Assembly (NCBI GenBank): GCA_030272155.1
Contig: CP126202.1
Coordinates: 620,001 to 684,000 of the forward strand
Length of the DNA stretch: 64,000 bases
Source of the DNA: Tetradesmus obliquus
Lineage: Eukaryota > Chlorophyta > Chlorophyceae > Sphaeropleales > Scenedesmaceae
Direction: 5' to 3'
This document shows, in pieces, positions 486 through 44,931 of this stretch (its first letter is position 1; every line of letters begins with the position of its first letter). The position numbers were made by a program, and so were the translations under genes. The notes under the pieces are model-generated. The model ran no database searches, was not told the DNA's origin, and saw only the letters and a program-made list of their open reading frames with translations.

Positions 486-2105
486 CTAGCCGCTCCTAGT
501 ACTGCAGCCACTAATGTTCCTGTTGCTCGGGCAGCTCGAACTGCTGCCTCTGCACACTGCATCTGCCACACACGGCCCAGTAGATGCCCTGCACACATAT
601 CCCACAGGCATAAAGTCGTAGCAGCAGCTCACCCTGTTGCCGCTGCTGTTGCGCACAGCCAGAGTATACTTGCCATTTGGGCAGCTCCTACTGCCAGCAG
701 CTGGTAGGGTCCCTGTTAGGGCTGAAACACAGAGTGGCAGGCCGGTGCTTGGGCAGGTTACACCAGCAGCAGCAGGATGAGGGCTGGGGCTGGGATTAGG
801 GCTTGGGCTTGGGCTGGGGCTGGGTTTAGGGCTTGGGCTTGGGCTTGGGGTGGGGTTTGGCTGCATTGCAGGAGTGGGTGAAGCGCCGGGCGGTCCAAAG
901 GGAGCAGGAGGGCCAGCAGGCCCTGCAAGTGCCGCTACTGCTGCCTTCACGCAGTCTAGCGCAGCAGCTGCGTTCAGGATGCCACCTGATATGCGCTTCA
1001 TGCCTGATGTGTCGCCGACTGCCGGCTTGACTGGCTGCGCCAGGCTGGTGGCTTTTATGCAGCGGATGACCTGTGCTGCTGTGGCGCTGGGCACAACATT
1101 GCGGAGGAGCAGGGCCACTGCTGCAACATACGGCGTGGCCTGGGGACAGGAGAGGCAGCAAAGCAGACAGGGCGACACACAGTCAGCGTGATAAAGTATG
1201 CACCCAAAGTGGCATGATGATCCAGAAGTGCGTAGAAAGTCTTAGCACCGCTAAAATTACAATACGGCTGTAGTGTGTACGTGCTACAGCTGTGTCTGCT
1301 GCCACCCAATTATCAGCATTGGTGCACAACTCATTTGCTGACACTGTAGTTGGCTATATATGAGGCTGCAGCCATCATCCCAAAAGATTGCCCTCATGTG
1401 ACAAGCAGGTGCCCCATCTGCATGTAGCACACCGCAGCAGCCAAGACCCATGCAGCTGTATTGCTTCTCTAGGATCTGTACATTCAATTTTTGAATCTGT
1501 AGAAGGCCCCTCACCATAGAAGTGCCTGACCAAGTGGCAGAGGCCCAGTAGTTTGAAATGGTGCTGTCAGCATAGTGGCTGGGAATGTCTGAAAAAATGC
1601 CCACACCTGCACACACATACACACAACCACAACAGCAGAAGAGGAGTGTTCAGCAGTAATTAAAGCCTTGCCTTGTGATTGGTAAGCTACTGCTGCTACC
1701 CAGACTAAGCAGCTCATACCAGCCAAAGCTATTCCGTGCCTGACTGTTTGGGCGTGAGCGACGTACTGTGTGTACAGCAGCAGTGCGGCAGCCACGCACT
1801 CTGATCCACCGCGAGTTACAAGTTGCATGTGCTATTGCATCAGACGCAGTCAAGCCTGCTTTTCAGCCTATGCTCTTCCGACGCACTGCTCACCTGGTGC
1901 CGCCACACCCACTGCCGATCCCCAGTTTGAAAACGTGGCCAGGCGGTCCGAGTTATCCACAGCCGCCACTGTAAGCACGCAGTCGGGGTACAGCGCTGCA
2001 AACTTGGCAGGGTACTGGCCGTCATATTGGTAGCCTGATGCGTCAGTGCCGGCGGCTGAGATGTTGAGACCCTCGTTGCCGGCAGCCACAACAACCATGC
2101 CTGAT

Positions 2106-2180
<75 letters not shown>

Positions 2181-4241
2181 GCAAAGGTGAGCTTGCCGAG
2201 ACACACAGTTCAAGAAAAGTTCGTGGAGGACTTGATTGTGTGGCAGAGCAAGTGCTGTCGAGAACATGCACCAGTAATTTGTCGCCAGCCAGCACCTAGC
2301 AACACTGGCCACGCATGTTGCATTCATCTCGCTCAGACTACGCCATGCAGTGCCTGCCTGCCTGCCTGCTCAACATGCGCTCACCTCCATCGTCGCAGAT
2401 TGCCTGCTTAATAGTGTCCCGCTCCGCCGCCATCTCAGCCAGCTGCTGGCAGGCCCCAACACCCAAACCATATTCCTAACCATATTCCTAACAACCATAA
2501 GCAGAGCAAAACACGCTCACCTCCATTGACACAGATGGTTTGCTTGATGGTGTCCCGCTCCGCAGCCATCTCCGCCATTGTGCCGGCAGGCCCCAGGATC
2601 CAAACATCTTCTCAACAACCATTGAACGTAGCAAAACACGCTCACCTCCATTGTCACAGATGGTTTGCTTGATTGTGTCCCGCTCTGCCGCCATCTCTGC
2701 CATCGTCCCGGGCCCGCCCAGGGACATGTTGATCACCCAGTGCGCGTCCACGGAGCGTGTGTGGTTGTAGCAGGCCAGCAGGTCTTGCGTGGAGGCAGCA
2801 ACCTGCAAGTTGCAGCACGGTGGGCGATGCGCAGCCGAATGAGACTCATGTGCAGTCCGCCAATCAGTCAACATTACGCCTGCTGCATCCGGCACGCAGG
2901 ACGGTGTTGAGTGCTGGTTTTGCTCTAACACTAACGCAACAATCACACCACCCACCTGCACCATGCTGCTAGAGAAATAGGACCTGGGCGAGAAGGTGTT
3001 GCCCATGACCAAGCCAGAGGAGGTGGGCCCCAGCGCTCAGCAGAGCATCAAGAGCAGCCAAATGCAGTACAACAAACAGCACCCACCTGCACCATGCTGC
3101 TAGAGAAGTAGGACCCGGGGGAGAAGGCGTTGCACATGACCAGGCCAGAGGAGGTGGGGCCCAGCACCCCAGCAATGCCGCGGCTGTCGCCATTGCCCCA
3201 GCCGCCAGCCATGATGCCTGGCAGCAGCAGCAGCAGCAGCAGCAGCTTGGTGAGCAATGTAGGAGGGACCGCACATGACAAACACAGCACTACCGTGCGT
3301 ACCGCTTGCTGGCAGCATTACTGCATGCACGTACGACGGCGTCATTGAGTCTGCACATGTAACACCTGGCTGCCTGTTATTTTGGCAATGTAACATGTTA
3401 TTCTCACCTGCCACGTGCGTGCCGTGGCCCGTGACGCTGGCGCTAACGAGGTTCAGGTTTGATGCGCCCTGCGCCGGGCTGTTGCCCGCCCTGTTGAAAG
3501 TGGCTGACCTCGATTTGTCGATCTGCAGCTGGCTGTTCATTCCAAGCATATCCAGGTGGTTGTAATCCACTCCCGTATCAATGATTGTGCCGCGCTTGGT
3601 GAAGCCGCCGGAAAAGGGGATTAGGCCAGGCTGCTGCCAGATGCTCTGCATTGCGATGCGGTTCATGCCCCAGAGGTAGGGGCAGCTGCCACTCGGGCAC
3701 TCTACAGGGACGCTGGTAACGCCAGTGAATGCAGTTGGCAGGCTTGCTCCCCGGCTGCGGTTAGTGGTCGGGGTGTGTGTTGGTGCGATGAGGGGGGTGC
3801 GGGCAATGCGGGGGCGGTCGAGCTGCGCGTCTTGGAAGCTGCCGGATGACAATAGGCCAGCAAAGGCATCGCCGCCTGCATATGCGTGACAGTGCAGCAG
3901 CACGGATTTCCAGTAAGGGACTAGATGTAAGAACAGGAGACAGCAAACTGAGATGATGAGCTACTCCCACAGCCACGGTGGCGTATAAACAGATATGAAC
4001 AAGTGCAGGGCGGACTGTGTCTCACCTGAAGCTACTGAAGCAACTCCTACTGCGCCTGAGCCGCCAACTTGCTGCTGCTTCTCCAGGGCATACCAGCAGC
4101 GTGTGGGTAGTGGCTGAGGAGAAATTAGCCCCTGTGCTGCTGCCTGCTGCATTGCTGCTGCGAGTGCGTCATCTGCTACTGCGCCGGTGCTCTCATCGCA
4201 GATGCTGCTGCTGAGCTTCACTAGCACTGTTGAACTCAACC
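486..4241 (-). CDS. Subtilisin-like serine protease (peptidase S8), 5' end unresolved
   Basis: Secreted-type endopeptidase of the subtilase family. Exons on the minus strand: 4026-4241, 3408-3872, 3087-3217, 2646-2802, 1894-2100, 1515-1606, 486-1139. All junctions are GT-AG and all phases agree. The catalytic triad is complete: Asp in DTGVDYNH (about 3570), His in GHGTHVAG (end of exon 3408-3872), and Ser in GTSMATP, split across the 1515/1139 junction. The oxyanion-hole Asn is in VVAAGNEG (about 2075). After the protease domain come a Pro/Ser-rich linker (about 785-870) and a Cys-rich C-terminal module ending at 486. About 640 residues are modelled. The exon at 4026-4241 may be prodomain. 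A start codon and signal peptide must lie upstream, in 4270-5100, and I could not place them. Algal sporangin/hatching enzymes are subtilases, but that role here would be guesswork. The introns carry duplicated splice donors (see findings). Confidence 0.88.
2102..2178. repeat. (CAG)n tract abutting a 3' splice site
   Basis: On the sense (minus) strand this is a long CTG run ending almost directly at the acceptor of subtilase exon 1894-2100. It sits where a polypyrimidine tract would normally be. In plus-strand frames it looks like polyalanine or polyglutamine, but it is intronic. Confidence 0.8.
2385..2646 (-). repeat. Tandem copies of a subtilase exon end with its 5' splice site
   Basis: The 3' end of exon 2646-2802 (coding AEMAAERDTIKQTICDNGG) and its donor GGAG|GTGAGCG recur downstream in the intron, with donor equivalents at 2521 and 2385. 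The spacings are 125 and 136 bp. The copies read AEMAAERDTIKQTICVNGG and AEMAAERDTIKQAICDDGG, so they remain open and each could join in frame to the exon at 2100. Confidence 0.85.
2956..3087 (-). repeat. Partial copy of a subtilase exon end with donor
   Basis: The end of exon 3087-3217 (SPGSYFSSSMVQ then GTGGG) is repeated 131 bp downstream, with its donor equivalent at 2956 (SPRSYFSSSMVQ). It belongs to the same junction-duplication class as the other arrays in this window. Confidence 0.8.
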
Positions 4242-4269
4242 CTGCAGCAGCAGCAGCAGCAGCACGCAT

Positions 4270-5385: not shown

Positions 5386-8300
5386 TTAGTCCGCAGCTGG
5401 CCACGGCTCTGCTAGCTCCGCCACGCTCTGTCCTGCAAGCAGGCCAGGCAACTTCCGCTGCAGCAGCTGCCGCAGCGCTGACAGGTCAACTTCCAGGCCA
5501 GCCTGCGCATGCACCAGCAGGCACTCCCGCCCGCTGCACTCCTGCGTAGTCCATCCCGCATAACGCGCATGCGCTGCCTCCTTGTACCTGCGGCCAGCAT
5601 GAATTGCAGTGCGACATATGAGCATGAGCTGGAGCCACAGTGTCTGCCAGGCGATGATCCATGCACGCACAACACACCTTCCATGTGGGAAGCCTTACCT
5701 GAAGATTCCAAAGGATGCTTGAACAGACATCAACATCAACAGCAACAGCATGCTCGTGCACATGTCACACAGCCTGTCACTGTTCCAACCCTGCCCTGGC
5801 CCGCACCAAAGCCCACCTGCACAAGCGTGCATCCAGCGGCTGCCACTCCCAGTGATGCAGCTGCCCCTTGCTTGCCGTCATGTTGCACCAACACCTTGAT
5901 ACAGCTGCTCAAACCCCCATAGCTATCACATGCCGACCCACCTGCACCACCTGTCGTCCAGTGGCCGCCACGCCCAGTGGTGCAGCTGCCCCGTGCTTGC
6001 CGTCATATTCCGATACAGGCTGCTCACGTCCCGCCACTGCCACTTGTAGGGCAGCAGCTCGAGCACAGCTGCCTTCATTAGCCCCCCATCCGCTGCACGC
6101 CAACAGCCACATACACACAGGCACACTTCCTGCAAGCATCAAAACCTTCCCGCAAGCATCAACACCTTCCTGCAAGCATCCGCATTCCCAGCAAGCACCA
6201 AGCCCACCTGCACCACTTGGCGTCCAGCGGCCGCCACGCCCAGTGGTGCAGCTGCCCCGTGCTTGCCGTCATATTCCGATACAGGCTGCTCACGTCCCGC
6301 CACTGCCACTTGTAGGGCAGCAGCTCCAGCACAGCCGCCCCAGGCGGCAGCAGCACAGCGGAGGCCAGCAGGGGCCCGTGGCGCGCAATGAGCAGGCCTG
6401 TGCTCGACATTGTCGCCATATGTGACAGGAAGGGGGCGCCCATGGTCAGCGACACCGTGCGCACCTGCAGCAAAGGAGGGTTGGGGAGGGCAGTTCAGCA
6501 GAAGAAGGGTTTAGTGTTCAGTTTCCTGCACATGCATGTATGCTCGTGATGTGACACCAGCAGCACAGCCGCCCCAGGCGGCAGCAGCACAGCGGAGGCC
6601 AGCAGGGGCCCGTGGCGTGCAATGAGCAGGCCTGTGCTCGACGTTGTCGCCATATGTGACAGGAAAGGGGCCCCCATGGTGAGCGACACCGTGCGCACCT
6701 GCAGCAGAGAGGGGGTGTGGGGAGGGCAATTCAGCAAAAGAAGGGTTTAGTCTTCAGTTTCCTGCACGTGCATGTATGGTCGTGATGTGACACCAGCAGC
6801 AGCAGCAGCTCAAGCACAGCAGCATTGTTTGGCAGCAGCGCAGCAGCGGCCAGCAGGCCTGTGCCTGCCACGGTGGCCATGTGTGACAGGAAGGGGGCGC
6901 CCATGGTCAGCGACACCGTGCGCTCCTGCAGCAGAGAGGGGTTGGGGAGGGCAGTTCAGCAAAAGAAGGGTTTAGTGTTCAGTTTCCTGCACGTGCATGT
7001 ATGGTCGTGATGTGACACCAGCAGCACAGCCGCCCCAGGCGGCAGCAGCACAGCGGAGGCCAGCAGGGGCCCGTGGCGTGCAATGAGCAGGCCTGTGCTC
7101 GACATTGTCGCCATATGTGACAGGAAAGGGGCCCCCATGGTGAGGGACACCGTGCGCACCTGCAGCAAAGGAGGGTTGGGGAGGGCAGTTCAGCAAAAGA
7201 AGGGTTTAGTGTTCAGTTTCCTGCACGTGCATGTATGGTCGTGATGTGACACCAGCAGCACAGCCGCCTCAGGCGGCAGCAGCACAGCGGAGGCCAGCAG
7301 GGGCCCGTGGCGTGCAATGAGCAGGCCTGTGCTCGACATTGTCGCCATATGTGACAGGAAAGGGGCTCCCAAGGTCAGCGACACCGTGCGCACCTGCAGC
7401 AGAGAAGGGGTGTGGGGAGGGCAATTCAGCAAAAGAAGGGTTCAGTCTTCAGTTTCCTGCACGTGCATGTGTGGTCGTGATGTGACACCAGCAGCAGCAG
7501 CAGCTCAAGCACAGCAGCATTGTTTGGCAGCAGCGCAGCAGCGGCCAGCAGGCCTGTGCCTGCCACGGTGGCCATGTGTGACAGGAAGGGGGCGCCCATG
7601 GTGAGCGACACCGTGCACACCTGCAGCAGAGAGGGGTTGGGGAGGGCAGTTCAGCAAAAGAAGGGTTTAGTGTTCAGTTTCCTGCACGTGCATGTATGGT
7701 CGTGGTGTGACACCAGCAGCACAGCCGCCCCAGGCGGCAGCAGCACAGCGGAGGCCAGCAGGGGCCCGTGGCGTGCGATGAGCAGGCCTGTGCTCGACAT
7801 TGTCGCCATATGTGACAGGAAGGGGGCGCCCATGGTCAGCGACACCGTGCGCACCTGCAGCAAAGGGGTCGAATGGTGGCGATTTGAGGCAGAACATGGC
7901 TTTAGGGCTTGCTTTTCTACCCATGCATGCACAGTCGTGATGAGATATCATGGCAGCAGCACAGCGGAGGCCAGCAGGGGCCCGTGGCGTGCGATGAGCA
8001 GGCCTGTGCCTGCCATGGTGGCCATGTGTGACAGGAAGGGAGCGCCCATGGTCAGCGACACCGTGCGCACCTGCAGTGCGCACCTGCAGCAAAGGGTTCA
8101 ATGGTGACATTTGGGCAGAACATGGCTTTAGGGCTTGCTTTTCTACCCATGCATGAACAGTCGTGATGTGATACTATGATGGCAGCAAACAGCGGAGGCC
8201 AGCAGGGGCCCGTGGCGTACAATGAGCAGGGCGGTGCCTGCCATGGTGGCCATGTGTGACAGGAATGGGGCCCCCATGGTCAGCGACACGGTGCGCACCT

Positions 8301-9079
8301 GCACCAAGGAGGAGTGGCATTGGAGAGACGTATTAGTTGATGGCAGTCAGGGCAGGCGACAGGTGCAGGGCTCTACGTCCTGCAGTCATACAGATGAACT
8401 CGACACCTTTGGCAAGTAGCTGCAATCAGTTGCTGTCATGTCCAGCCCCGTTCACGGGCTCAAACCCCAACATTCTCAACATGATGAAGTGCGTGCGAAA
8501 CCGCCGAACCCCACCTTGAACCCATAAGGTTCCGCCAGGTCCCTCAGCATGTCTACCAGCTCATAGTGGTTCACCACTGGTGGATAGTCTTCAGGGTACA
8601 GCAGCACAGTCACCATGCGAGGCAGCGTGCTGCTGCTGCTGCTGCCGGCGCCCTCAGCACCTTGCTGCTGCTGCTGCTGCTGGAAGGGTGGCCCCCACAG
8701 GTGCCTGGCATGTGCAGCGGCTCGGAACTGTGCTGCTAGCTCAGGCCGGTTGAAGCCCACACGGTGCTCAGTGTTCCACAACCCTGCATCCTGCTGCTGC
8801 TGCTGCTGCTGCTGCTGTCTCGGCTCCTCTTCCGCACCACCCCCTGATCTGCTGCTGCTGCTACTGCTGCTGGCAACATCACCAGCTTGGCTGCTAACCA
8901 ATGCTGCTGCTGGGGGTTGCGGCAGCTGCCTATCAGGCATGGCAAGGAGTGGGTATCTATCTTGCGCTACAACCACATTCTCAAACAGCATCCAGCCATG
9001 TGCACACCACCCACTGACATCATCAGCACCTAGCAGTTGCGGCAGCGGCCTATCCCAGGGCACAGCACCCGCCGGCAGC

Positions 9080-9114
<35 letters not shown>

Positions 9115-9507: not shown

Positions 9508-9549
<42 letters not shown>

Positions 9550-11464: not shown

Positions 11465-11503
<39 letters not shown>

Positions 11504-11663: not shown

Positions 11664-11700
<37 letters not shown>

Positions 11701-12653: not shown

Positions 12654-12684
<31 letters not shown>

Positions 12685-13362: not shown

Positions 13363-13393
<31 letters not shown>

Positions 13394-13467: not shown

Positions 13468-13516
<49 letters not shown>

Positions 13517-18151: not shown

Positions 18152-18184
<33 letters not shown>

Positions 18185-28060: not shown

Positions 28061-31000
28061 TCACAGCATCGCCGCGCAATGGCTGACATGCGTCTCGCGG
28101 TCCATGCTGAGGAGTGTGGTCAGAGGCGCCCCGCCGCGACCCGGCTGCGCGCCGCCGCTGCCGCTGCTGCTGCTGCCACCTGCCTCAGTCCAGCCAAGCG
28201 GCACACTCATGCGCGCCTTTAACCCCCGCAGCCGCTTTAGCCCTTCCATCTGCTCCTGCGCAATGCTCACTTTGCTGCTGTCCCTGCTGCCATTTGCAGT
28301 GTCACTCTGCAGCGGCTGACCCCACAAGCCGGTTGTAACAGTGCTGCCGCCACTGCCGGCGCTGCCGCTGCTGCCGTTGCTGCCGCCGGGCGCCCGCTGC
28401 AGCGGCTGCAGCGGCAAGCCTCCACTGCCCGCCTCTGCAGGCTGCTGCTGCTGCTGCTGCTCGAGCCAGCTCGGGACTTGCCGCTGCTGCTGCTGCGGCA
28501 GCGGCGGCGGCTGCTCTGCGGCCAACATATTGTATGCTGCGCCTGTGCGTGAGTTCATGGAGCCCACATCGATGCTGTGGCGAGCATTGGGGGCCCTTGC
28601 AGGCCGCTGGAACGTCATCAGCTCCGGTAAGGGGCCAGACCCTACAGCTTCACCTGCAGTGCCTTTCTGCACTGGCGGCTCCACTGCTGCTGCTGCTGCT
28701 GGAGGTGCAGCACTTGCCGCATCGCTGCCAGCCGCTGCTGCTGACAGCTGTGGCGGCAGCCCCGCCGCAGCTGCAGCGGCCCTGCTGCTTGCGGCTGCAG
28801 CAGCCTCGCTGCCATCGCCTGCTGGCGCTGCTGCTGCTGCTGCCCTGGGGCTGCTGGCGGGCTGGCTGCTTGTTGAGGCCTTGCCCAGGTTGCTGCTGCT
28901 GCTGCTGCTGCTTGCTGCGCCGCGCTTGTACTGCTCCCCTAAGCTGGTTAGCAGCACCTCTGGGTGAGCCTCGGGCACGTTGCGGGCCCACTCGAGGTAG
29001 GACTGCAGGCAGCAGGCAGGGCAGCAGAAGGCAGTGGGTCACATCAGCTCAGGAAATTAACGTGTTACTACTGCCAGAAGCATGTTTGCAGATCTGTAGT
29101 CACGCAAGGCAGGCATCTGTGTGCCAAGGGTACCACCAGACGCATGCGCTGCAGCATAAGTGTGAGTGCGGGCACAGTGTCTTGCGCTACACCAGAAGAG
29201 GCACCAGCTGTGATGCCTACATATCCAAACCCAAGTTCAGCAGCACGGACACGTACATAAGGAAACCACAGGTTCTCAATCACAAAAGCATCGTTGCAAG
29301 TTGCAGAAAAACAGGCCAATACAGCGATTGATGTGGAAGCTCACCTGCAGGTGCTGCCGCACGTAGGGCATCTCCAAAATCTCGCTCACAAGCGGCCGCG
29401 CATTGGGGTCCGTCTGCAGCAGGCAGCAGCAGCAAGGGGTGATCAGCACAGTTGAGCTGTGCAGCTGCTGCCTCCCGTGGCTGCTGGTGGGCAGGCAAAG
29501 ATCATTATGACAGCACAGTCTTCACTTTTTGGATACGAGTCAGCCAATGCACCACCCGCGCTTTGTCTCACACACTCCCATCCCGGGAAGTTACTCTTTA
29601 GAGGGCACCCCGTCTTTCCACGCAGGCCTCGCCCGCAGCATGCTGCCCACCCGCGCCTTCATCTTGGCATCTGCAAGCTCCCAACACCCCACCCACTCTT
29701 TCTTTGCGATCACTCTCACTTTCATGCCAGCATGCTCGCCTGCAGCATGCTGCCCACCAGCGCCTACGTCTCAGCACCCCCAGACTCCGCGGCTCCCTGA
29801 CACATCACTCACTGTTTCTCACGCGCACCACTCCCACTCTTTCACACAGGGCTCATCACTTTTCCTCACTCTTGCTCACCTGCAGCATGCTGCCCACCAG
29901 CGCCTTCACCTCGGCGCTGTAGCACTCCGGCAGCGGCGTGTACTTGCCCCTGATGATCTTCACATGCGACACCTCACTCTTTCTCACTCATCCAGCCATG
30001 CCCGGTCACTCTTGCTCACCTGCAGCATGCTGCCCACCAGCGCCTTCATCTCGGCGCTGTAGCACTCCGGCAGCGGCGTGTATGTGCCGCTGATGATCTT
30101 CAGGATGATGCCGGAGATGCCGCCATTGCCCAGGTCAAAGGCCTTGGTCAGTGTGCACAGCTCGTACAGGATGCAGCCCAGCGCCCACACGTCACTCTTC
30201 TTGCCGTAGGGCTTGTTGTCACACATCTCGGGGGACAGGTACTGCGGCGTGCCCACGATCGTGCTCGCCATGCTGCTCTCTGCACACAGAAAGCAGCAAA
30301 ACACAAAACGTTTCAGGTGCTTTCACTATAATTTCAGAGAGTTGGGGAGGCGGCCGCCGCGCTTCAACCATACGCAGGCAGCCGACCACACCTGGCGCAA
30401 CCTGCACCCAGCTGTGCCTAGCTCAAATCAACCACAGCTTTGCACCCCAACAACCAACTCCTCAACCCCGCAAACCTCTGCACCTGAGGCAGCTGAACTT
30501 AGCCACACCAAAGCCGCCCAGCTTAAGATACAGCAAACATGCCGCTGAAACCGCACCTATCGAACCTCGGACACCAAACCCATGCGCCCTAGCAAGCCCA
30601 CCTGGCCCGGAGATCTTGGCCACTCCAAAGTCTCCCAGCTTGAGCAGCGGCATGCCGCTGAAGCCAGGCGCACTGGTGATGAGCACGTTGGAGCACTTGA
30701 GGTCGCGGTGCAGCACGCCCGCAGAGTGCACGTACACCAGCGCCAGGCAGATCTGCGATGATACGTGGCAGCAGCAGCAGCAGCAGCAGGTCAGCATGCC
30801 CGCAGAGTGCGCATACACAAGAGCCAGGGGATCTGCAGGCTGGTAACAGATCGACAGCAGCAGCTCAAAGTCCAGCAGCGTCCCGCAGGATTGACATGCA
30901 GGAACCAGGAGTCTTCCTGTGCACAAGCCACAATGCTAGCCAAACAGATAACAAAGAGCAGCGTTGTTTGGGAAAACCACGCCATTGAGTAAGCAGATAC

Positions 31001-33365: not shown

Positions 33366-36300
33366 ATGGCACTGCAGCAGCAGGTAGACACGCTCAAGCA
33401 GCAGCTGGATACTGTTTGGGCTAGGTGAGCCTTTACAGACACCAACAGGACTGTGGATCGCGCAGCACGCACATGCAGCAGGCAGCGCTGCCTTCGTGCA
33501 GGTGTTCTTTGACATGCCTCTCCATCACCTTCAACCATATGCAAGACAATCAATCATGTCAGACTGAAGCTGCAGTTGTACACTGCAGCAGGGATCATCT
33601 GGTTGCGCAGCATTCTACGGTCTGCAAAGTCGCTGGGCAACTGCGTTCAGCGTCAGTCAGCGGCAGTCAGCCAATGCCATTCTCGACAAAACACAGTGTT
33701 TTGTGCATGTGTTCTTCAACGAAGCATGTATCTTCACAGATGATGCATGTGGGCAGGCATGCACTGGTCCAGTTCAACGCCCCAGGCGGTCCTGCCCTGC
33801 AGTGATGCCACAGCTTGTGCTGATACTGCTGATGATGCTGCTGCTACTGCAGCACTGGCATGAACATCCCTTATGCTGATCTCGATGTTCAAGACCAAAT
33901 CGGTGGTGTGTGTCTGTGCTGGACAACCAGAACGCAGCAGCCTGGCGCTGAGTGGCCGCGCTGACTCAGCATCGGATGCTTTGTAGCCACAAGCACTGCT
34001 GCCAGCGTGCTTCCAGCCGCAGTACATGGAGCCGCACAGTGGCTGAAGCAGAGGCAGCAAATGGGTGTCACAGCCGTGTTACTCCACCTGCTATTGCAGC
34101 AGCACCGGAACACACCAGCAGCTGCACCGCACTCAAGTTGTCCTGCCAGCCAGGGCTCCTGCAAGCAGCTGGGGTGTTCCTGCAAGCTGCTGATGTACGC
34201 CTTGTCATATTGCTGCCTTGTATGTGCAGGCGGAGGCTACTCCCTGGTGTGCCGAGGGCTGTGGCATGGCACGCCAGTGGCAGTGAAGCGCTGGTTCAAC
34301 CCGCAGCTGCAGGAGGAGGTGCAGGAGGAGTTCAGGTGCTGTTCCATGGAAAGAGGAAGGGAAGGGGAGGTAGTGGCATCCATGGGGCGAATGTGTAGCA
34401 TTGCATCTGCTTTGGTGGAGCTGTTCTAGCACATGCAGCTGCAGGAGGAGGTGCAGGACTCCTCGGAGGAGTTCAGGTGCAGGTGCAGGGGATGAGGAGG
34501 GGAAGGGGAGGTCGTAGCACCCATGGGGCAAAAGTGCAGCATTGCAGCGGCTTAAGTAGAGCTGTTCTAGCAGCACATGCAGCTGCAGGAGGAGGTGCAG
34601 GAGGAGTTCAGGTGCTGACTCAGCAGCTGTTCATCATGGCATGGCGACCGTGCTGCAGGGATAGGCTCGCCAATCTGCTACAGGCAGCAGCAATTGAACT
34701 GCTGGTCATCTGCCACAGCTTCTTTCTGCAGCAGCTGCGCTTGCAGGAGAACTCGCGACTGCTGCTGTTCAAACAGCCACCAATCATGTTCCGCGTGTGC
34801 TGCTTGCTGCAGGCAGGAGGTGATAGTGCTGCAGCAGCTGCGCCACCCGCATGTGACTCCTGCTGCTGCTGCTGCAGCTGCTGCTGGCTATCGTGTGTGC
34901 TATACGAAACTGCAATCTCACGGTTATCAACATAGGAACCGCATGTGTGCGTGCGCCTGCAGGCAGGAGGTGATGACGCTGCAGCAGCTGCGCCACCCGC
35001 ACGTGGTGCAGTTCCTGGGTGCTTGCATGAAGCCGCCCAACTTGTGCCTGGTCACGGAGTACATGCCGCACAGCCTGCACAGCGTGCTGTACGAGCAGCA
35101 GGGCGTGGCGCTGGACAGGAAGCGGTGAGCGGCAGCGCTGGTTTATGCGGATGTGTGATCATGCATTTAGTATGATGCAGCAAGGTTGGCAGGGATTGTG
35201 CAGCAGCAGGGCGTGGCGCTGAGCAGGAGGCGGTGAGCGACAGAGTACGCGTCCGTCGCGTTGCAAGGTATACATGTGCAACAGTTGCTGGGGTATGTTC
35301 AGCCCAATGCAGCGACAGATTGCTGTACAGGGTGTGGCGCTGGACAGGTAGCTGAGACAACACAACTGCTGGCGCCAAATGCTGCCGCATGCTGTTGCCG
35401 TGCAGGGTGCTGTCGCTGGCAGCGGACGCCGCGCGCGCGCTGCTGTACCTGAACAAGTAGCCCTCACGGCGTGCCGGTAAATCAAGTTGCTGCTGTTGCA
35501 TGCTGCGCAGGGTGCTGTCGCTGGCGGCTGATGCCTCATGGGCGCTGCTGCACCTGCACCATGTTACAGCATGCTGAGACATCTGCTGCTGCTGGCGCCA
35601 ATTGCTACCGCATGCTGTTGCCACGTAGGGTGCTGTTGCTGGCGGTGGATGCCGCGCGCGCTACCCTTCCTGCACGCACCGCACTACAGCCCTCACAGCA
35701 TGCTGACAATCCTGCATGGAACCTCCCACATGGCACTGCTGTGTCTGCTGCAGGGTGCTGTCGTTAGCGGCTGACGCTGCGCGGGCACTGCTGTACTTGC
35801 ACCACGTGGCCAAGCCGGCTGTAGTGCACCGTGATGTCAAGCCCGCCAACTTTTTGCTGGACCGGGCCTGGCGCATGAAGCTGGCAGACTTTGGGCTGGC
35901 AGCCAACAGCAGCAAGCAGGTGCGGACGGTTCAAGGGAGTTGTGGCAAGATGCTTCAACCGCAGTTTAGAAACAGTGTTGAGGGTGTTGCAGCTGTCTTT
36001 TTACTTTGCAGACTGTGGGCTGGCGGCCAACAGCAGCACGAGGGTGCTGCGTTTCTAGAGCCGACCTGCAACCGCTAGGCCGAGAGGTTATGGGCAGCAG
36101 TCCATTTTATTGGCCAGCAGGACAGAGCATGTTTTGCAAAGCAAGATGCACACACCACACAGCCCAGGTGTATGCTGCTCCCCCTGTGCATACAGGCAAC
36201 CGCAGGCACACCTACCTACCTAGCTACATGGCACTCGTGAGCTGCTGCAGCCAAGCGTCCTCACAGCGCCAAGGTGGATGTGTGTGCTTGACATGCTGCT

Positions 36301-37193
36301 GTCCTGCCGGTGTTTTTGCCCCAATGCATACAGGCCAACGCAGGCACACCTAGCTACATGGCCTCACAGCTGCTGCAGCCAGGCAATCCCTATAGCGCCA
36401 AGGGACATTTGTTCTTTGACATGGTGCTGTCCCGCCCTTTTCCCACCCCTTGTGCAGGCCAATGCAGGCACGACTAGCTACATGGCGCCGGAGCTGCAGC
36501 CAGGCGGACCTCACTGAGCCGAGGTGGACGTGCGTGCTCAACATGCTGCCGTCCCGCTTTGCTCCCTTTCCAACATTGTGCAGGCCAACGCAGGCACACC
36601 TAGCTACATGGCGCCCGAGCTGCTGCAGCCAGGCAGGCCCTATAGCGCCAAGGTGGATGTGTACGCATTCGGGGTCATGCTGAACGAGATGCTGGGCCGC
36701 AGCCCGCCCTGGGCTGGCATGGCTGCTGGGGACATACGGCGCCAGGTGAGAGAGCCTGGCTGTGGCTACATGGGTGCGACATGTGGCAGCAACTTTCACA
36801 GTGCCCTGCCGCCCTGGAGAGGTGGCTGTTGGCAGCTTGTGCACCACTGCAACTGGCTTGTGTGGCCCAGGAAGTACACTCTGCTCTCTGGCGTCCTGTG
36901 CGCGGTGCAGCGGCCGCCAGTAGCCCTGCCTGTGCCCAAGCACCTGCAGCTGCTCATCATTTCCTCCTGCTCCCTTTCTGCTGGCTGGTGGCAGTGCTGC
37001 AGCGCCTCTCACCAACTGCTGCACACTGGCTCCCTGTGTGCAGGTGCTGGCAGGGCAGCGGCCACCTGTGGACTTGTCGGTGCCCAAGCAGCTGCAGCAG
37101 GTCATCGGTGCATGCTGGGAGCAGCAGCCGGAGCAGCGGCCGGACTTTGTCAGCATTCTAGAGCAGCTGAACGCAATGATCAAGCAGGTGTAG
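33366..37193 (+). CDS. Minimal TKL (Raf-like) protein kinase
   Basis: Compact kinase made almost only of the catalytic domain. Exons: 33366-33424, 33853-33905, 34230-34335, 34963-35124, 35754-35919, 36584-36745, 37044-37193. They total 858 nt (285 aa), all in phase. The N-terminus [19 protein letters not shown] is a short coiled coil. The domain begins [20 protein letters not shown] (glycine loop about residues 37-44), VAVKRW (Lys 57), [37 protein letters not shown] (Asp 154), DFGLA (Asp 172), [25 protein letters not shown] and [13 protein letters not shown]. These are TKL-class motifs typical of plant and algal Raf-like kinases, and all catalytic residues are present. Stop TAG at 37191. A candidate TGTAA signal lies at 37547. 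Six of the seven exons are involved in junction duplications or border introns that hold them. Confidence 0.9.
34335..34612 (+). repeat. Copies of TKL kinase exon 3 end with donor
   Basis: The exon end coding LQEEVQEEF and donor CAG|GTGC occurs at donor equivalents 34335 (true), about 34480 and about 34612. The middle copy has a small insertion (DSS). Confidence 0.85.
35406..35754 (+). repeat. Four tandem acceptors: copies of TKL kinase exon 5 start
   Basis: The sequence coding [15 protein letters not shown] occurs with exon-start equivalents at 35406, 35511, 35629 and 35754 (105-125 bp apart). Only the last runs on into HRDVKPAN. A short copy of the exon-4 end ([10 protein letters not shown] and donor) lies just before, at about 35190-35234. 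Confidence 0.9.
36196..36584 (+). repeat. Four tandem acceptors: copies of TKL kinase exon 6 start
   Basis: The sequence coding [17 protein letters not shown] occurs with exon-start equivalents at 36196, 36334, 36458 and 36584 (124-138 bp apart). The third copy has an early in-frame stop. A diverged copy of the exon-5 end (LAANSS) lies at about 36010-36040. A copy of the exon-7 start lies at about 36905-36960. Confidence 0.9.
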
Positions 37194-37662
37194 GCTAGCC
37201 AGCACCCTTGGAGTTGCTGTTTTCACTACCAAGGGTGAAAAGCTAACCAGGCCTAGTAGGCCTGGTAGGCGTGCCTGCTTTATGTGCACCAGCGGGCATG
37301 TCTGCTTGCTAGGGTGACATTTTAAGACAGGACACCTGCGGTCCAGGAAGCCGCTGAAAAGTGGCATGCGCTGTGGTAGCGCTGGAACTGGAATGCGGTG
37401 TCGTCACTGCGTCACTGCAAGATTGCTGACGATGTGACTTTGGCTTGTGACAGCTGTCTGGAGTGTATCTTGCTGCTGGTTACCAGCTGCAGCAGAGTGA
37501 TACGTTCGTCGTCGGAAACCGACGAACCTCAAGAACAGGGCGTGACTGTAACACCTTCAGTCGAAGCACCTGCTCAAGCTGGTCTTGAGTCCTGCTGTCC
37601 AGCCTGTTCTGCTGTCGGTGACTGATTTCCCGCAGCTCTCGCGCTCAGGCGCACTCGGAATC
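37194..37662. other. Spacer between TKL kinase and hydroxylase genes
   Basis: This 470-bp spacer between genes on the same strand holds the kinase 3' UTR and hydroxylase promoter. It has a 19-bp palindrome at 37247-37265 (CCAGGCCTAGTAGGCCTGG), a hairpin near 37504-37528 (GTTCGTCG/CGACGAAC) and TGTAA at 37547. Confidence 0.5.
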
Positions 37663-40343
37663 ATGGCTGATGGTGAGGCGCTAGAAGGCAGCCTAGATGC
37701 AGCAGCGCTTGCTGCACCCCAGCCCGTGTCGGCGGGTGCTGCGTGTACACACGTAAACTGGCTGGCCCAAGTCTTTCATGTCACAACAGCGCGATGACAC
37801 AGCATCATTCAGACAGGAGTAAATGATAATGTGTTTTTTTGTTCGTAGCTGCTGAGACAAACAGGACCTGAGAAGGTGCAGTACCACTCACTCCAGCTGT
37901 GCCTGCTGCTGTGCCCTACCCTGCTCTCCATGCACGCAGCAGTGGCAGCTGCGGACGCAGTCGACGTCCAGCCAGCATCAAAGAAGCAGAAAACCGCAGC
38001 AGCAGCCGCGGACAGCGGCGCGGCAGCAGCTGTGATCAGGCAATCGCTGCTGTCAGGAGACTCCCGCAGCCAGCTGCGGCAGCAGCATGACTCCTCTGGC
38101 CCTTACACGCACCTGGTGCTAAAAGAACTAGCGGACGAGCAGCTGCTGCGTGCTGTGCGTGAGGAGGTCATCCACAACATCTCAGCAACATACAAGGAGA
38201 CAGACCTGTTCAAGGTGTTCCAGACAGGTGGGGGCACCAGGGGGCGGCACCGCCTGCAGCAGCGCCGCAGACGTAACAGTACCACAGCAGCAATGGCAAC
38301 AATTTGAAAGTGGCAGCTGACGAGTAACAACATATCAGCAGCTGCCTTCATGCAGCAGCATGCCAGCATGCCTGCCAGCTGCTGGGTGCCGGCCCATCTA
38401 GCGCCAGCAGCTGTTCTGTGGGCAGCGGCTGCTCGCCACAGCTGCATCACAACAGAGCAGCAGCGGCAAGCAGGTGGTAGCAAAGCTGGGGTTGAGGAGC
38501 TAGCATGCATTACTGTGCCTGCAGGCGACCTGGCCAACATGGATGCGCTGGACCCAGAATCGGCAGCCAAGCTGCCAGCACTGATGGCACTGCGAGGGGC
38601 CATCTACTCACCAGAATTCAGGCAGTGAGTCTGCAGTAGTATACGGGTTGCGTTCAGTACGGCAGCTGAAGGTTAGCAGCAGTGGCAGTGCAATGGTGGC
38701 AGTGATGGCAGCAGCCTAGGGGTGGCAGTGCATGCAGCAGGTTGGCAATGTGAAAGCAAGGCATATGTGTGTTGAAGCCGCAGCTGGCAGCTCACTGCAA
38801 GTGCAGCAGTTGGTATTACGGACTCCTGGTGTACAGTGGGCTCAGTGGATTTATGTACAGCAGCAATAGGTGGCAGACAAGCGCAGCTTTGGCTTGCTGA
38901 CCGTTGGGCAGTGTCAGCAAGGCAACTTACATGTGCTGCTGCTGCTGCTGCTGCTGCTACTGCTGCCGCTGCTGCAGGTTTGTGGAGGACATCACGGGCG
39001 TGGGTGACCTGTCAGACAAGACAGACCTGTCCTGCAACGTATACGCACAGGTAGGGTTCGACTTGTTGTTACAAACTGTTGTATCTGTGGCTGCTGCGAC
39101 CAGCTGGGGCAGTCTGCCAAATGCAATGCAGCAATTGCTGCCGGTTTGAAATGCTTGGTATGTGGTCATGCCAGCTGCATCATGGATGTGCTGGCACCTG
39201 CGCACAGCCGCCTGCGGCCTACAGTGGTGAAACACAAGCCTGCTCGTCACATGCATGCTGCTTCTTTTTCCAACTTCTCGTCACTGCAGGGTGGCCGCCT
39301 GCTGAACCACAATGACGTGATCGGCACGCGTGCAGTGTCATTCGTCATCCACTGATTCAAACTTCATCTCACACTCTTTCTAACACCTTCCAAACTGCAG
39401 GGCGGCCACCTGCTGAACCATGATGACGTGATCGGCACGCGTGCCATGTGTTTTACCATCTACCTCACTGACTCAAATGCATCTTGCTGTCGTTTGAACA
39501 CCTTTCAAACTGCAGGGCGGCCACCTGCTAAACCACGATGATGTGATTGGCACGCGTGCTGTGTCATTCATCATCTACCTCACCGACCCAGATGAGCCAT
39601 GGACCGCAGAGGATGGCGGCGCACTGGAGCTGTACCCACTTGTTGAGGGTGAGCACATCTTGTTACAATTGTTATGCTATGATGTCACTTTGTGCGATGG
39701 TGATGTTCGACCCTGATGAGCCGTGGACTGCAGAGGATGGCGGCGCTCTGGAGCTGTACCCACTGGTGGAGGGTGAGCACAATTCGTGTTATTTATCATG
39801 TCATCCTGTTATGATGTCACTTTGGTGCATTGATTGATGACCCTGATGAGCCGTGGACTGCAGCAGATGGCGGCGCACTGGAGCTGTACTCACTGGTGGA
39901 GAGTGAGCACATGTTGTTACATATGGTGTTGCTATGACATTACGCCGTTACCATGGTGTGGTACCGTTAGTCAGCACCCTGCAGCTGGAGGTCGTGATGG
40001 GCGGTTGCAGGGTGCTGGTGCGATGCTTGCAGCTGGCACCCATCTTGTGCGTCGTGGGTACTGCGCTATGACACAAGAGCACAGCTGCTGCTGCTGCTGC
40101 TGCTGCTGCCAGGCAAGCCGCACACCCCGGACGTGATCCCCACCACCAGCCACCTGCCCACCTGGAACAGCATGGCCATGTTTGTGGTGCAGCCAGGCAG
40201 GAGCTTCCATAGCGTGCAGGTGAGACCCAGCAGCAGCAGCAGCAGCAGCGGCAGCAACAGTGGCAGCAGCAGCAGTGGTGGCAGCAGCATGGCCATGTTT
40301 GTGGTGCAGCCGGGACGCAGCTTCACAGCGTGCAAGTGAGGGA

Positions 40344-40380
<37 letters not shown>

Positions 40381-40443
40381 CAGCATGGCCATGTTTGTGG
40401 TGCAGCCAGGCAGGAGCTTCCACAGCGTGCATTTGAGGGAAAG

Positions 40444-40525
<82 letters not shown>

Positions 40526-40709
40526 CAGCATGGCCATATTTGTGGTGCAGCCGGGCAGGAGCTCCACAGCGTGCAGTTGAGGTTCAGCAGCAGCAATTAC
40601 ATTGCCTTTTACCAGTTTTGCTGTAGTGTGCCTATCTTTGCAGGACTGCTGCTTGCGGATCAGCATGTATCTGATTGCAGGCACTAAGGAGCAAGTCATG
40701 CTCATGCGT

Positions 40710-40761
<52 letters not shown>

Positions 40762-41665
40762 GCTTGCAGGAGGTGCTGTCAGCCGACAAGCCGCGCCTAT
40801 CTATCAGCGGCTGGTACCACAAGGCGGCACCGCAGCAGGGCAGCGAGCACGCGTCGCTGCAGCAGCTGCAGATGAAGGCAGGAGAAGATCAGATACAGCA
40901 GCACGCAGAGTTTGGAGGTGAGCAGCAGGCAGTGCATGTGCATGACATGAAAATGAATCAGTCAAGCGCTAGCATACAGCAGCTGCAGATGAAGGCAGGG
41001 TGGGACCAGATACAGCAGTAGGCAGAGTTAAACGGCGAGCAGCACTTGCAGATGCATGTGCACGTGTTATCGTCAGAACCCATGGCAGGTCGTGCAGGAG
41101 GCAACACCTACGACATGAGGCTGGTTTGCAGCTGCTGCGTGCTTTGGTGAACCCCGCCTACCCAAAGCAGGAGGAGTGGTCTACATGCCACTGAGCTGTC
41201 ATGTATGTCACTGTCTCCTGTCATCTTGCAGGCAATGACACATCTGGGCCTCTCACCGACGAGGATCTGCAGCTGCTGCGGTCCTGGGTGAACCCTGCCT
41301 ACCTCAAGCAGGAGTCCTGGGCAAAGATCCAGGGCAAGATGGAGGCAGATGGCAGCGTGCAGCTGCAGAAGTTCCTGCTGCCAGAGGTGAGAAGTTCATA
41401 TGTAGTTGCTGAGGTTTCTGCTGCTAGCAGTAAGTAGTGTAGGTGCAGAAGTTCTTGCTGCCAGAGGTGGAAGTCAGGGCAAGATGGAGGCAGATGGCAG
41501 TGTGCTTCATTGTGCCAGCTAGCACCTGCTATCACAGCTGCTTTGTGTGCACTACCAAATCCATTTCATATGCTGTGGTGCTGCTGCTGTGCTGCTGCTG
41601 CTGCTGCTGCAGGCAGGAAATGCTTTGCTGCCGCAGCCCCTGCTGATAAATCGCTCCGTATGTGC

Positions 41666-41721
<56 letters not shown>

Positions 41722-44700
41722 AGGTTGCTGAGCAGATCCTGCAGGCAGCAGTGGCTCAGGACGCAGCAGAGGGAGTGGGCAGCGGCAAGATACCCAGCTT
41801 CACAACAGGGTACAGTGAAGGTGAGTGGTGAGGAGTAACGCTGCAGATGTGTCACATTGTTGCGGCATCTGATCACAGCTGCAGCTGGGAAATGTGGTTT
41901 GTACCATTGTTTGGCTTTGCTCAACAAAGTGGCTATAGCACTAGGTCAAGTTATGCCGCCTGCTTGCCTTGACTTGGTGTTGGTCTCAAGTGCCTCACAC
42001 TGCCTGCAGCTTGGCACACGTGCTAACTGTTTGCTGCTGTGTCTATTGTGTCTATTGTGCTTCACCCATGCAGACTGGCAGGCAGTGGGCCCTCCACACA
42101 AGCAGCGCTACCTCTCATACAGGGGCCAGCCGCAGCAGCCAGGCACTACTGCTGCTGCTGCTGGGGGCCTGCTGGCAGCAGCGAAGGCGGCGCTGTTTGA
42201 GTCTGGCGCCTTTGCGCGGCTGCTGAAGGCGATGATTGATGTAGAGATACTCAAGCATGCAGGCGAAGTGCGGCGCTTCCGAGCAGGTGGCGAGTTTGTG
42301 AAGCCAGCGTTTGCTGCTGGCCCAGCGCATTACGCCTGACAGCACAGTCGGGTGGTTTGACCCTTGCGTGCAGGAGTCGACTGCGTATCATGTTGCATCA
42401 GCTGACTTATCGCTGTGTATCCCTGTTGCAGGCCTGGACTACACTGTTGCGCACTATGGCATCGTCACCTCATAGCCATGCCTGCACTGCGTGCTTACAT
42501 GTGTCAAACACCACCTGCTGACGTATTGCGGTTTGTACTGACTCATTCCTGCAGGTAACAGTGCAGCGCATTATGGCATCATCACTTCGGAACTGCGCCT
42601 GGACTGCGTGCTCACCTTTGTCCACGCTGTTGGCTGAACCACTGCTGACACTGTATGTTTCATGCTAGCTGCAGGGCTTGTCTACACTTGGGCGCACTAT
42701 GGCATCATCACCTCAGTGCCACGCCTAGACTGTGTGTTACTACGCCGTGTTGTCAAGCTTCCTGACCTGTCGCGGCTTCTCTCCATCCAATTCCGTTGCA
42801 GGCTTGGACCACACTGTGGCACATTATGGCATCATCACCTCTGAGCCACGCCTGGACTGCGTGCTCACTTTTTGAACGACACAACCTGCTGACATCTTGC
42901 GGTTGTGCTCACTCAACCCTGCAGGCCTGGACTACACTGTGGCGAGCCATGCCTGGACTGCGTGCTCACCTTTGTGATTGACACCACCGATTGCTTAGCG
43001 GTTCAAACTGCTGCTCTTGGTTCCTCCTGCAGGACTCGACTACACTGTGGCGCACTATGGCATCATCACCTCCGAGCCACGCCTGGACTGCGTGCTCACC
43101 TTTGTCAATGACACGACACCTGAGGCAGCCGACGGCTGGGCAGTTGGGGAGGTTGGCGGCTTTGAGGCATATCTGCTGGCGGATGAAGAGGAGGAGGCAG
43201 CTGGCGCTGCTGCCGTGTACCGCCAGGTGGGTGTGAATGTACGTTGTTCATGTCTCAAAAGTGACAGGGTTTGCAGCTTTGAGGTGTAACTGCTGGCTGA
43301 TGAAGAAGAAGAGACGGCTGGCGCTGCTGCGGTGTACCGCCAGGTGGGTGATGATTGTACGTTCTTCATGTTTTGACAAGTGACAGAGGTTTGCAGCTTT
43401 GAGGCGTATCTGCTGGCTGATGAAGAAGAGGAGACGGCTGGCGCAGCTGCTGTATACCGCCAGGTGAGCATTGGCTGCATGTTTCCTTGCTGCAATACTT
43501 CTAGTCTGCGAGGTAGGTGGCGTTGAGGCGTACCTGCTGGCGGATGATGCGCAGGAGAGGGCTGTCGCTGCTGCCGTGTACCGGCAGGTGGGTGATTGTG
43601 CTTTTTGTTATACACAGTGACCGAAGCTTGGCTGAAGTGAAGCGCACCTGCTGGCAGATGAAGAGGAGGAGACGGCTGGCGCTGCTGCCGTGTACCGCCA
43701 GGTGGGTGATGACTGCTGCTTGTTCTGTCGAGTGCATTGTGTTACACAAAAGTGACAACTAGGGGTTGGGGAGATGGAGGATTAGGAGCGTATCTGCCGG
43801 AGGATGAGGAGGAGGAGGAGACAGCAGGCGCTGCCGCAGTGTACTGCCAAGTAAGGCGTGGGACGGCACCTTGTGCAGCCAGTGAAAGCCTGGCTGGCCT
43901 GCTGCACTTCATCTGCTGTGTTTGCTCTTGCAGGACGGCAATGACAGCGGCGCCATAAACCAGCAACAATCTCAACCTCCTTCGCTGCTGCTGCTGCTGT
44001 GCTGCTGCTGCTGTGCTGCTGCTGCCGCCGCCGCTGCTGCTGCTGTGTTTGCTCTTGTAGGACGGCAACGACAGCGGCGTCATCAACGTGCCAGCAGCCA
44101 GCAACACGCTCAACCTGCTGATGCGGGATGCCGGCCTGATGCGCTTCGTGAAGTATGTCAGCGCAGCAGCACCAGGCAGCAGGTGAGTTCCGTGTCAGAT
44201 ATTGAACTTCGTATGCATTGTACGCTTGCGCACGGCACTCACAATGTATAACAACAGCAGATGGCGTTGAACCATCAGAGTTTGTCAGCGGGTTTCCTGC
44301 AAAGAGAATGCAAGTATGATTTAAAATGTGGTGCGTGATGGTTGAATGTGTAGGCTCAGCAGGTTTTCTGCAAGCTGTTTGCGCTTGTGTGTTTGTTCGT
44401 TGGGCTTTGTGTTTGATGCGCTTTGTCAAGTACGTCAGCGCAGCAGCACCAGGCAGCAGGCGAGGCTCGTGCTTGTGTTTGTGTTTGTTTTGTTGGTGGT
44501 TGGGAAGGAGCGGTTGCAGCGCGACAGCAGGCAGCACATCTGCACATCAGCTTTCTTGCAGACTGTTCGCGAATACGTCTTTGCTGATTGGCTGTGCGAC
44601 AGGCATTTACAGAGTATCCGCCCACCAAATCCAATGTTAACACTGTTGGTCACAGCTACTATGCTGGTTGGAACTGCCGTTCGGCAGCCTCTCCTGTGTG

Positions 44701-44931
44701 CACCCTGCTGAAGGTGTTGGCCGAGGCTGCTGCAATCACATACCTTGATTCTTTGGCTGCTGCTTGGCCTACCTTCTGCGTAGGTGGGACCTTGCCATGG
44801 AATATGTGCCGGAGGATGATGGCGTGGACCCACCAATGCCTGAGTCACCAGAGCAGCCAGCAGAAGCAGAGGCGGCAGCAGCGAATGGCAACGGCGCTGC
44901 ACCAGCTGGCGAGGCCAACGGCACGGCCTGA
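37663..44931 (+). CDS. TPA1: Tpa1/Ofd1/OGFOD1-type prolyl hydroxylase
   Basis: 2-oxoglutarate/Fe(II) dioxygenase of the family that hydroxylates ribosomal protein uS12 and affects translation termination. Exons: 37663-37672, 37940-38227, 38525-38624, 38978-39050, 39516-39648, 40113-40219, 40770-40917, 41232-41386, 41724-41820, 42074-42286, 43033-43226, 44061-44182, 44784-44931. They total 1788 nt (595 aa), near the size of yeast Tpa1, with every phase consistent. PASKKQK near the N-terminus may be a nuclear signal. The catalytic HxD is in [10 protein letters not shown] (His 164, Asp 166), the distal His is in RSFHSVQEV (about 234), and the 2-OG-binding Arg is in [11 protein letters not shown] (about 246). 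The C-terminal half ([20 protein letters not shown], then [20 protein letters not shown]) is the second, non-catalytic jelly-roll. The first exon (only MAD plus one base) is less certain. Confidence 0.9.
39290..39902 (+). repeat. Acceptor and donor copies around hydroxylase exon 5
   Basis: The exon carrying the catalytic HxD has two extra copies of its start upstream (39290 and 39401, true 39516). It also has two extra copies of its end downstream (donor equivalents 39772 and 39902, true 39648). The exon start codes [18 protein letters not shown] and the end codes [16 protein letters not shown]. Confidence 0.9.
40219..40580 (+). repeat. Donor copies of hydroxylase exon 6 with CAG tracts
   Basis: The exon end [17 protein letters not shown] and donor is followed by three more copies (about 40288-40340, 40382-40436 and 40526-40577). 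They are separated by long CAG runs. The whole intron start is an alternation of exon-end copy and CAG tract. Confidence 0.88.
41120..41470 (+). repeat. Partial copies flanking hydroxylase exon 8
   Basis: A diverged copy of the exon-8 start ([18 protein letters not shown]) lies at about 41120-41180, before the true exon at 41232. A copy of its end (VQKFLLPE) lies at about 41443-41470, after the true donor at 41386. Confidence 0.8.
41661..41723 (+). repeat. (CTG)n tract abutting a 3' splice site
   Basis: About twenty CTG repeats end in CAG exactly at the acceptor of hydroxylase exon 9 (41724). Similar runs precede exons 4 (to 38977), 6 (to 40112), 7 (to 40769) and 12 (to about 44047). Confidence 0.85.
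42432..43033 (+). repeat. Six tandem acceptors: copies of hydroxylase exon 11 start
   Basis: The sequence coding [20 protein letters not shown] occurs with exon-start equivalents at 42432, 42555, 42675, 42802, 42925 and 43033 (108-127 bp apart). Only the last continues into the full exon. The first copy has an in-frame stop after GIVTS. The 42925 copy has an internal deletion. Confidence 0.93.
43226..43850 (+). repeat. Six tandem donors: copies of hydroxylase exon 11 end
   Basis: The sequence coding [20 protein letters not shown] and donor occurs with donor equivalents at 43226 (true), 43343, 43463, 43587, 43701 and 43850. The copies lie 114-149 bp apart and differ by substitutions. Confidence 0.93.

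Follow-up and report, generated by a model that had tools for sequence, protein, structure and literature searches.

Copies of exon ends and their splice sites in adjoining introns of the green alga Tetradesmus obliquus

Genes and arrays of the window

The window considered here is a 64-kb stretch of the Tetradesmus obliquus genome (C12:620001-684000; genome of 104.7 Mb, 17 contigs), containing genes for a subtilase, FAS1, two protein kinases and Tpa1, all supported by Pfam. These labels of the first-pass annotation, made from the letters of the stretch, were upheld, but its GT61 label found no support in the six DNA pieces scanned. Self-alignment of the window together with a gene map showed arrays at the genes it had named (Table 1). 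The observation is confirmed and general: exon ends, carrying their splice site, recur in the adjoining introns. The interpretation given to it at first, an intron-growth process anchored on junctions, is partly supported.

Table 1. Arrays and single copies of exon ends at splice junctions of the window
Feature	Position	Strand	Details
Subtilase gene, donor-side array	2378..2711	-	true donor 2645/2646; copies near 2520, 2384
Subtilase gene, donor-side copy	2937..3165	-	true donor 3086/3087; copy 2955; homology 17 nt into intron
Gene first labelled GT61 (label unsupported), donor-side copies	5803..6339	-	near 5941, 5816; exon part ~128 nt
Gene first labelled GT61, acceptor-side array	6327..8315	-	true exon start and eight copies, 216-234 bp steps, exon part ~138 nt; gene finder calls copies exons
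FAS1, donor-side array	15345..15658	-	true donor 15601/15602; copies 15478, 15353
FAS1, acceptor-side array	15708..16392	-	true acceptor 15778; copies 15891, 15998, 16134, 16253, 16366
FAS1, donor-side array	16438..17250	-	true donor 17192/17193; five copies, 132-133 bp steps
FAS1, acceptor-side array	18482..19037	-	true acceptor 18547; copies 18698, 18849, 19000; skipped in intron-free P0121
Kinase gene (first labelled NEK), donor-side array	29628..30102	-	true donor 30019/30020; copies 29879, 29739, 29632
Kinase gene (first labelled TKL), donor-side copies of junction 35124	35094..35243	+	
Kinase gene (first labelled TKL), acceptor-side array	36181..36662	+	true acceptor 36583; copies 36457, 36333, 36203
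Tpa1, acceptor-side array	39283..39594	+	true acceptor 39515; copies 39400, 39289; junction used in protein matched to NCBI record
Tpa1, donor-side array	39584..39937	+	true donor 39648; copies 39772, 39902; junction used in protein matched to NCBI record
Tpa1, donor-side array	40166..40595	+	true donor 40219; copies 40335, 40432, 40576
Tpa1, donor-side copy of junction 40917	40860..41062	+	copy at 41034
Tpa1, acceptor-side array, junction 43032	42425..43122	+	three or four copies next to the true exon start; no relation between the 55-nt flanks
Tpa1, donor-side array, junction 43226	43143..43852	+	five copies beside true exon end, 114-149 bp steps
Tpa1, donor-side copy of junction 44182	44137..44464	+	copy at 44459

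The sample consists of the window, which was picked for its repeats, and of 60 stretches (293 kb) around Pkinase matches, picked irrespective of repeats. All results therefore refer to one species and one assembly and, apart from the window, to kinase loci. Arrays were counted in a first set of 264 kb (window and L002-L021) and in a second set of 93 kb (L022-L061). The splice sites of 28 well-supported kinase introns, which give a clean consensus (MAG|GTG[AC]G and TGCAG|G), seeded a small gene-finding hidden Markov model, whose splice matrices were frozen (self-training drifted). Of 14 kinase introns, the gene finder reproduced 13 without error, these exons and introns being part of its training set, and it labels some copies as exons, notably at 6465-8300. 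Except in Tpa1, FAS1 and kinase domains, the junctions are its predictions. The Tpa1 protein was joined by hand from exons of the window; it is 100% identical over 595 aa to the NCBI protein OEZ86_004448 of Tetradesmus obliquus and aligns to yeast TPA1 structures in three stretches.

Frequency of copies and their relation to splice junctions

A nearby copy was found at 112 of 907 splice junctions, equally divided between donors and acceptors (56 each). Junctions that are copies themselves were dropped from this count, and the rate per junction is slightly underestimated because 876 of the 958 mapped junctions were testable. Copies are present at 39 of 134 junctions within the window and at 73 of 773 outside it, which extends the pattern well beyond the six genes in which it had been noticed. 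Probes of 51 nt spanning positions -45..+6 (exon end and splice core), scored for copies within 300 nt, detected a direct copy for 132 of 831 junctions and an inverted one for none of them. Both counts bear out the proposed anchoring on splice junctions, donors and acceptors alike. The distances of the copies found by junction probes fall into two groups, 94 of 164 at 80-160 nt and 58 of 164 at 200-280 nt, with none at 40-80. Other 51-mer probes, many of which match the same arrays, gave copies for 40/689 (exon -97..-46), 13/444 (exon centre), 31/616 (intron +7..+57), 62/656 (near +75) and 53/658 (intron centre). At junctions where the junction probe itself had no copy, the respective values were 11/593, 5/392, 11/542, 18/579 and 25/579, or 1-4%. 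This probe comparison is a cleaner test of specificity than the counts of arrays given next.

Arrays were also counted independently of the probes, and the suggested check whether repeats span exon-intron borders came out positive for the sample. Exactly one border is straddled by 55 of the 81 arrays in the first set and by 25 of the 26 in the second; the other 26 of the first set lie intron-intron (6), exon-exon (1), outside predicted genes (13) and at gene or sequence ends (6). If straddling and intron-only arrays are considered, 55 of 61 straddle, against 53-56% expected for random placement on an array-collapsed map. The exon part is also more uniform than simulated (middle half 40-66 nt vs 26-84; Kolmogorov–Smirnov p 0.02-0.05, and 0.008 for full-unit arrays). 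For periods of 85-160 bp, 57 arrays were counted in the predicted genes (158 kb), as against 4 in the predicted intergenic sequence (88 kb). However, copies of exons are easier to detect because one partner is constrained. When the intron part alone was required to score, 24 straddling arrays remained, including 2 that stop short of the junction, next to 7 intron-only ones and 13 outside predicted genes, the 36- and 42-bit rows of this test being unreliable since query and target windows overlapped by 20 nt. Detection bias accounts for part of the straddling excess, which is weaker after correction, and the null model of tandem duplication plus selection looks less strongly rejected once this bias is allowed for.

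The copies are unevenly distributed among genes (chi-squared per degree of freedom 3.0): of the 72 predicted gene runs that have at least six junctions, 40 lack copies and some have many, and where one end of an exon or intron carries a copy the other end tends to do so as well. Expression or chromatin may matter for this clustering. Introns flanked by kinase-domain exons show the pattern too: L006, for example, has three copies of TGCAG and the exon start ahead of its true acceptor, and L011 has three as well.

Structure of the copies

The copied piece consists of about 45 nt of exon end (usual range 30-60) and a few intron nucleotides holding the splice core, in direct orientation. The units, put earlier at about 105-235 bp, have a typical step of 113-138 bp (middle half of 150 spacings); multiples occur, and one array has steps of 216-234 bp. 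For the extent of homology, 80 arrays were considered, from which 15 were removed for overlapping search windows (offset 0). In 31 of the 65 kept, here called the short class, homology ends less than 20 nt into the intron; intron-flank similarity in this class is within the 95% point of the null in 25 of 31 and clear in 3. Each of the 31 short-class copies inspected has one exon end, with the splice core at that end only. Donor copies of the FAS1 gene at 16529-17060 are each preceded by CGCAG and could in principle be small exons; the other donor copies of the short class are mostly not preceded by AG.

Two-copy arrays present the simplest case. Their exon copies are 78-97% identical (half at 91% or more), and a clear alignment of their 55-nt intron flanks is obtained in 4 of 30, or in 8 of 30 at a looser cut. 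End points were measured in 26 of the 30, four with overlapping windows having been removed: the alignment continues beyond the junction for 3-10 nt in 15 arrays and for 17-42 nt in 10, and in 1 it stops short. Even where the exon copies are at least 0.92 identical (13/26), the intron flank is clearly homologous in only 2 of 13. Along the arrays, identity is 0.83-0.91 over the last 30 exon nucleotides and 0.21-0.40 beyond +6 (null 0.25-0.28). At donors, identity is above the null at +4, +6, +7 and +9, meaning that the copy includes a few intron bases.

Arrays with three or more copies mostly take the form exon-end(spacer, exon-end)n, after which the intron continues with no relation to the array. 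On the far side of the most distant copy, 29 of 43 such arrays have an unrelated flank and 14 a homologous one. For most copies, the description as tandem units spanning the border is not borne out. Of the 57 pairs of neighbouring spacers, 38 show clear homology and 12 do not, and in the 38 the spacers are as similar as the exon copies (0.893 vs 0.900, p 0.86). Apart from low-complexity matches, no repeat family was found for 31 spacers within the 357 kb sampled. Genome searches with three array regions returned, among the matches listed, the regions themselves, CTG/CAG-rich or other low-complexity sequence and a few other, weak matches, with no dispersed family covering the arrays. The larger arrays look like mainly neutral tandem growth of a unit of spacer and exon end, for which the two-copy state would be the seed. 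Introns with and without copies do not differ in length (275 vs 264, p 0.73), a comparison that is uninformative as predicted pseudo-exons split the array introns.

Decay of the copies and splicing of the true exons

The copies mostly differ by 3-20%, which does not resemble duplication by assembly. Indels in 146 copies comprise 19 frameshifts and 4 in-frame changes, in agreement with the claim that one exon remains intact and its copies decay. The copies look largely neutral, with no clear coding constraint. Splice dinucleotides are retained in 66 of 83 donor copies (8 more have GC) and in 56 of 67 acceptor copies, which about matches neutral divergence. Selection keeping the exon copies was considered and set aside on the frameshift-dominated indels and the equal identities of spacers and exon copies.

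The proteins available follow the unique, true junctions. This applies to the NCBI Tpa1 protein and to the FAS1 sequence P0121, which is intron-free because its 310-aa frame sits on a 2,070-bp contig; in P0121 the true junctions are followed and the copies skipped, and it differs from the present genome by a few residues at one exon end. The proposal that each exon is offered many competing splice sites finds no support in these few sequences, in the frameshifted copies or in their splice sites, which give no clear indication of selection.

One FAS1 copy carries NNAAFAAVAGVVATLTPEQV, as does another T. obliquus accession, and the local exon and one other copy read SNAAFAAVADVVAKLTPEQV. The intronic copy at 16718-16659 matches the exon end of P0122, another T. 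obliquus accession, at 20 of 20 residues and the local exon does so at 17 of 20. This match is explained by copies preserving an older state of the exon. Over the whole gene (15173-19531), the first ~190 residues of P0122 are close to the local sequence and the rest, where arrays are dense, is about 70-86% identical; exchange between FAS1 exon ends and copies is compatible with this comparison.

Models of copy formation

The explanation that we favour, with confidence somewhat short of even, is local duplication, largely neutral and tied to splice junctions, in which a seed copy is followed by tandem growth. Seed copying is preferred because the intron half is missing and homology falls at the splice core. 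It is proposed that DNA synthesis at an intron break or stalled fork would re-prime at a nearby splice core, with GTGxG or TGCAG as the priming microhomology, copy a short run into the exon and then rejoin, leaving a copy about 120 nt deeper in the intron. Direct repeats of the exon end would then feed unequal exchange, giving exon-end(spacer, exon-end)n. Intronic copies could survive, as the first donor or the last acceptor keeps the frame, and copies landing in exons would be lost. As for templated insertion, 15 of the 26 alignments, all at filled sites, match over 3-10 nt at the splice core, as priming could produce. The choice of splice cores over any other microhomology may have a tie to splicing or transcription. 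In the specific form in which a process coupled to splicing or transcription repeatedly re-copies the exon end beside a splice site in use into the intron, with a constant step of ~120 nt, we consider the idea doubtful.

Several results count against seed copying followed by neutral growth. The step is independent of the length of the exon part (spacing 118 +/- 18; rho -0.19, n=22 two-copy arrays with spacing <= 160 and exon part <= 70), and exon-side end points within an array are at most 6 nt apart in 67% of 70 pairs (random 20%); the constant step and shared end points are as expected from fixed-length tandem duplication. Weak residual similarity of the flanks exceeds the 95% point of the null in 8 of 30 two-copy arrays, and the ten alignments (of 26) continuing 17-42 nt into the intron point the same way. 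Spacers are less alike than exon copies in the 8 homologous pairs below 0.82 identity (0.77 vs 0.88) and by a measure counting gaps (0.835 vs 0.879, p 0.011, 35 pairs). Singletons at codon positions 1, 2 and 3 number 7/5/36 in true exons, as for a coding exon, and 66/54/98 in copies; the skew of the copies to position 3 (p 0.0006) could mean weak constraint, although we attribute it to the copies having been made at various times while the exon changed at its third positions. Polymerase-theta insertions would be expected to include inverted copies, and none occurs within 300 nt for the 831 probes. The search for paralogous introns free of copies yielded none that were usable, and insertion of an exon copy is thus inferred.

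The constant step and end points lead to the most serious alternative, in which junction-spanning tandem duplications of ~120 bp arise everywhere and selection keeps those at borders, where the copy is spliced out; the intron halves later diverge, and gene conversion, with the true exon or its complementary DNA (cDNA) as source, perhaps renews the exon halves. The far flanks that show homology (14 of 43 larger arrays, 4 of 30 two-copy arrays, with weak similarity in more) are consistent with it, as are the greater likeness of exon copies than of the most diverged spacers and the background arrays outside predicted genes (13/81) and inside introns (6/81). However, neutral copies diverged by ~6% should show intron halves diverged by ~12%, and most two-copy cases show none; the exon and intron sides are repeated together in a minority of arrays. 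Spacers over all 38 homologous pairs diverge no faster than exon copies; the excess of straddling over uniform placement, in part a matter of detection, and the scarcity of 85-160 bp arrays between genes do not fit either. We regard this alternative as rather unlikely. The sharp fall of homology at the splice core, the equality of donors and acceptors, the exclusively direct orientation and the strong clustering by gene could instead be accounted for by RNA- or splicing-coupled copying, in which a precursor messenger RNA fragment around the splice site serves as template, or a break near splice cores caused by R-loops or the co-transcriptional splicing machinery serves as start. But a free RNA template does not predict a fixed step within the adjoining intron, and acceptor copies of the short class are mostly without the polypyrimidine tract expected of a spliceosome-protected fragment, which makes this mechanism distinctly unlikely.

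The remaining explanations concern the meaning of the copies rather than their origin. Retained splice dinucleotides in most copies, and the FAS1 copy that resembles P0122 more than the local exon does, would suit functional copies, either alternative splice sites or a pool of variant exon ends open to exchange with the true exon. Yet retention is near the neutral expectation, frameshifts dominate and the FAS1 match is covered by the older exon state kept in copies; a function is improbable. That the pattern is an artefact of the assembly or of the home-made gene map might be suspected, as the junctions other than those of Tpa1, FAS1 and the kinase domains rest on a gene finder that calls some copies exons. 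The divergence of the copies, the complete identity of the hand-joined Tpa1 to its NCBI record and the same pattern at introns anchored by Pkinase matches render an artefact highly improbable.

Comparison with known systems and implications

In the literature searched, which covered few subscription papers, no description of junction-bound intron growth by this rule was found. Intron gain by tandem duplication of AG|GT, reportedly modelled by Rogers and Hellsten, likewise involves local direct duplication, with splice sites derived from the copy. However, its array runs from exon to exon and makes an intron one unit long, whereas the T. obliquus arrays run from exon to intron beside an existing intron: one of the 81 arrays is flanked by exon on both sides and 55 straddle a single border. 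Tandem duplication of whole exons also leaves exonic sequence repeated in introns, but the short-class copies are single-ended; possible exceptions are the array at 6327-8315 and the FAS1 donor copies following CGCAG. Polymerase-theta end joining generates templated insertions, and in plants paired nicks give rise to tandem duplications. Short local copies, possible priming by microhomology and later tandem growth are shared with these processes, for which we know of no preference for splice junctions; the lack of inverted copies within 300 nt sets the T. obliquus case apart from polymerase-theta insertions.

In potato RdRp, one tandem duplication crossing an intron-exon boundary produced a new intron (PMC4974935). 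There too a local duplication includes the splice junction and passes through splicing. In contrast to this account, more than 100 sampled junctions have copies here, there is no new intron and most two-copy cases are without the intron half. Introners are families of similar introns, some with target duplications of 3-9 bp, reported mainly from fast-evolving lineages such as green algae (PMC9860276). The mass remodelling of introns is similar, but introners form families, and the three array regions belong to no dispersed family among the genome matches listed; nor was an inserted element found that might carry target duplications or terminal inverted repeats. The first-pass distinction from both whole-exon duplication and introners is thus retained.

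Transposons and random duplication are mostly held responsible for the growth of introns. A process bound to splice junctions, and marking roughly a tenth of those outside the window, would be a specific and testable source of it, and would also supply cryptic splice sites and gene-prediction errors. The mean intron length of T. obliquus is 462 bp, compared with 230-302 bp in four other green algae, according to one published table (PMC5966456), which does not make the copies its cause. As FAS1 copies keep exon states of another accession, copies may be datable against strains. If splicing-coupled re-copying were true, introns would extend from their own splice junctions, storing earlier exon ends in a form that can be dated, and splicing would leave a mark on DNA.

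Other repeats of the window

Three further repeats were observed in the window. A large inverted duplication (approximately 48.2-52.8 kb and 54.8-59.4 kb) carries closely similar open frames on opposite strands, for example 49226-50983 on the minus and 56619-58436 on the plus strand, with a 79-bp tandem pair in each arm. At 26303-27298, outside predicted genes, lies a 500-bp tandem pair of 99.8% identity, a recent ordinary duplication. In an intron of the subtilase gene, a stretch of ~65 bp that is not of low complexity (1811-1884) has over a dozen relatives genome-wide at ~80-85% and is a dispersed sequence.

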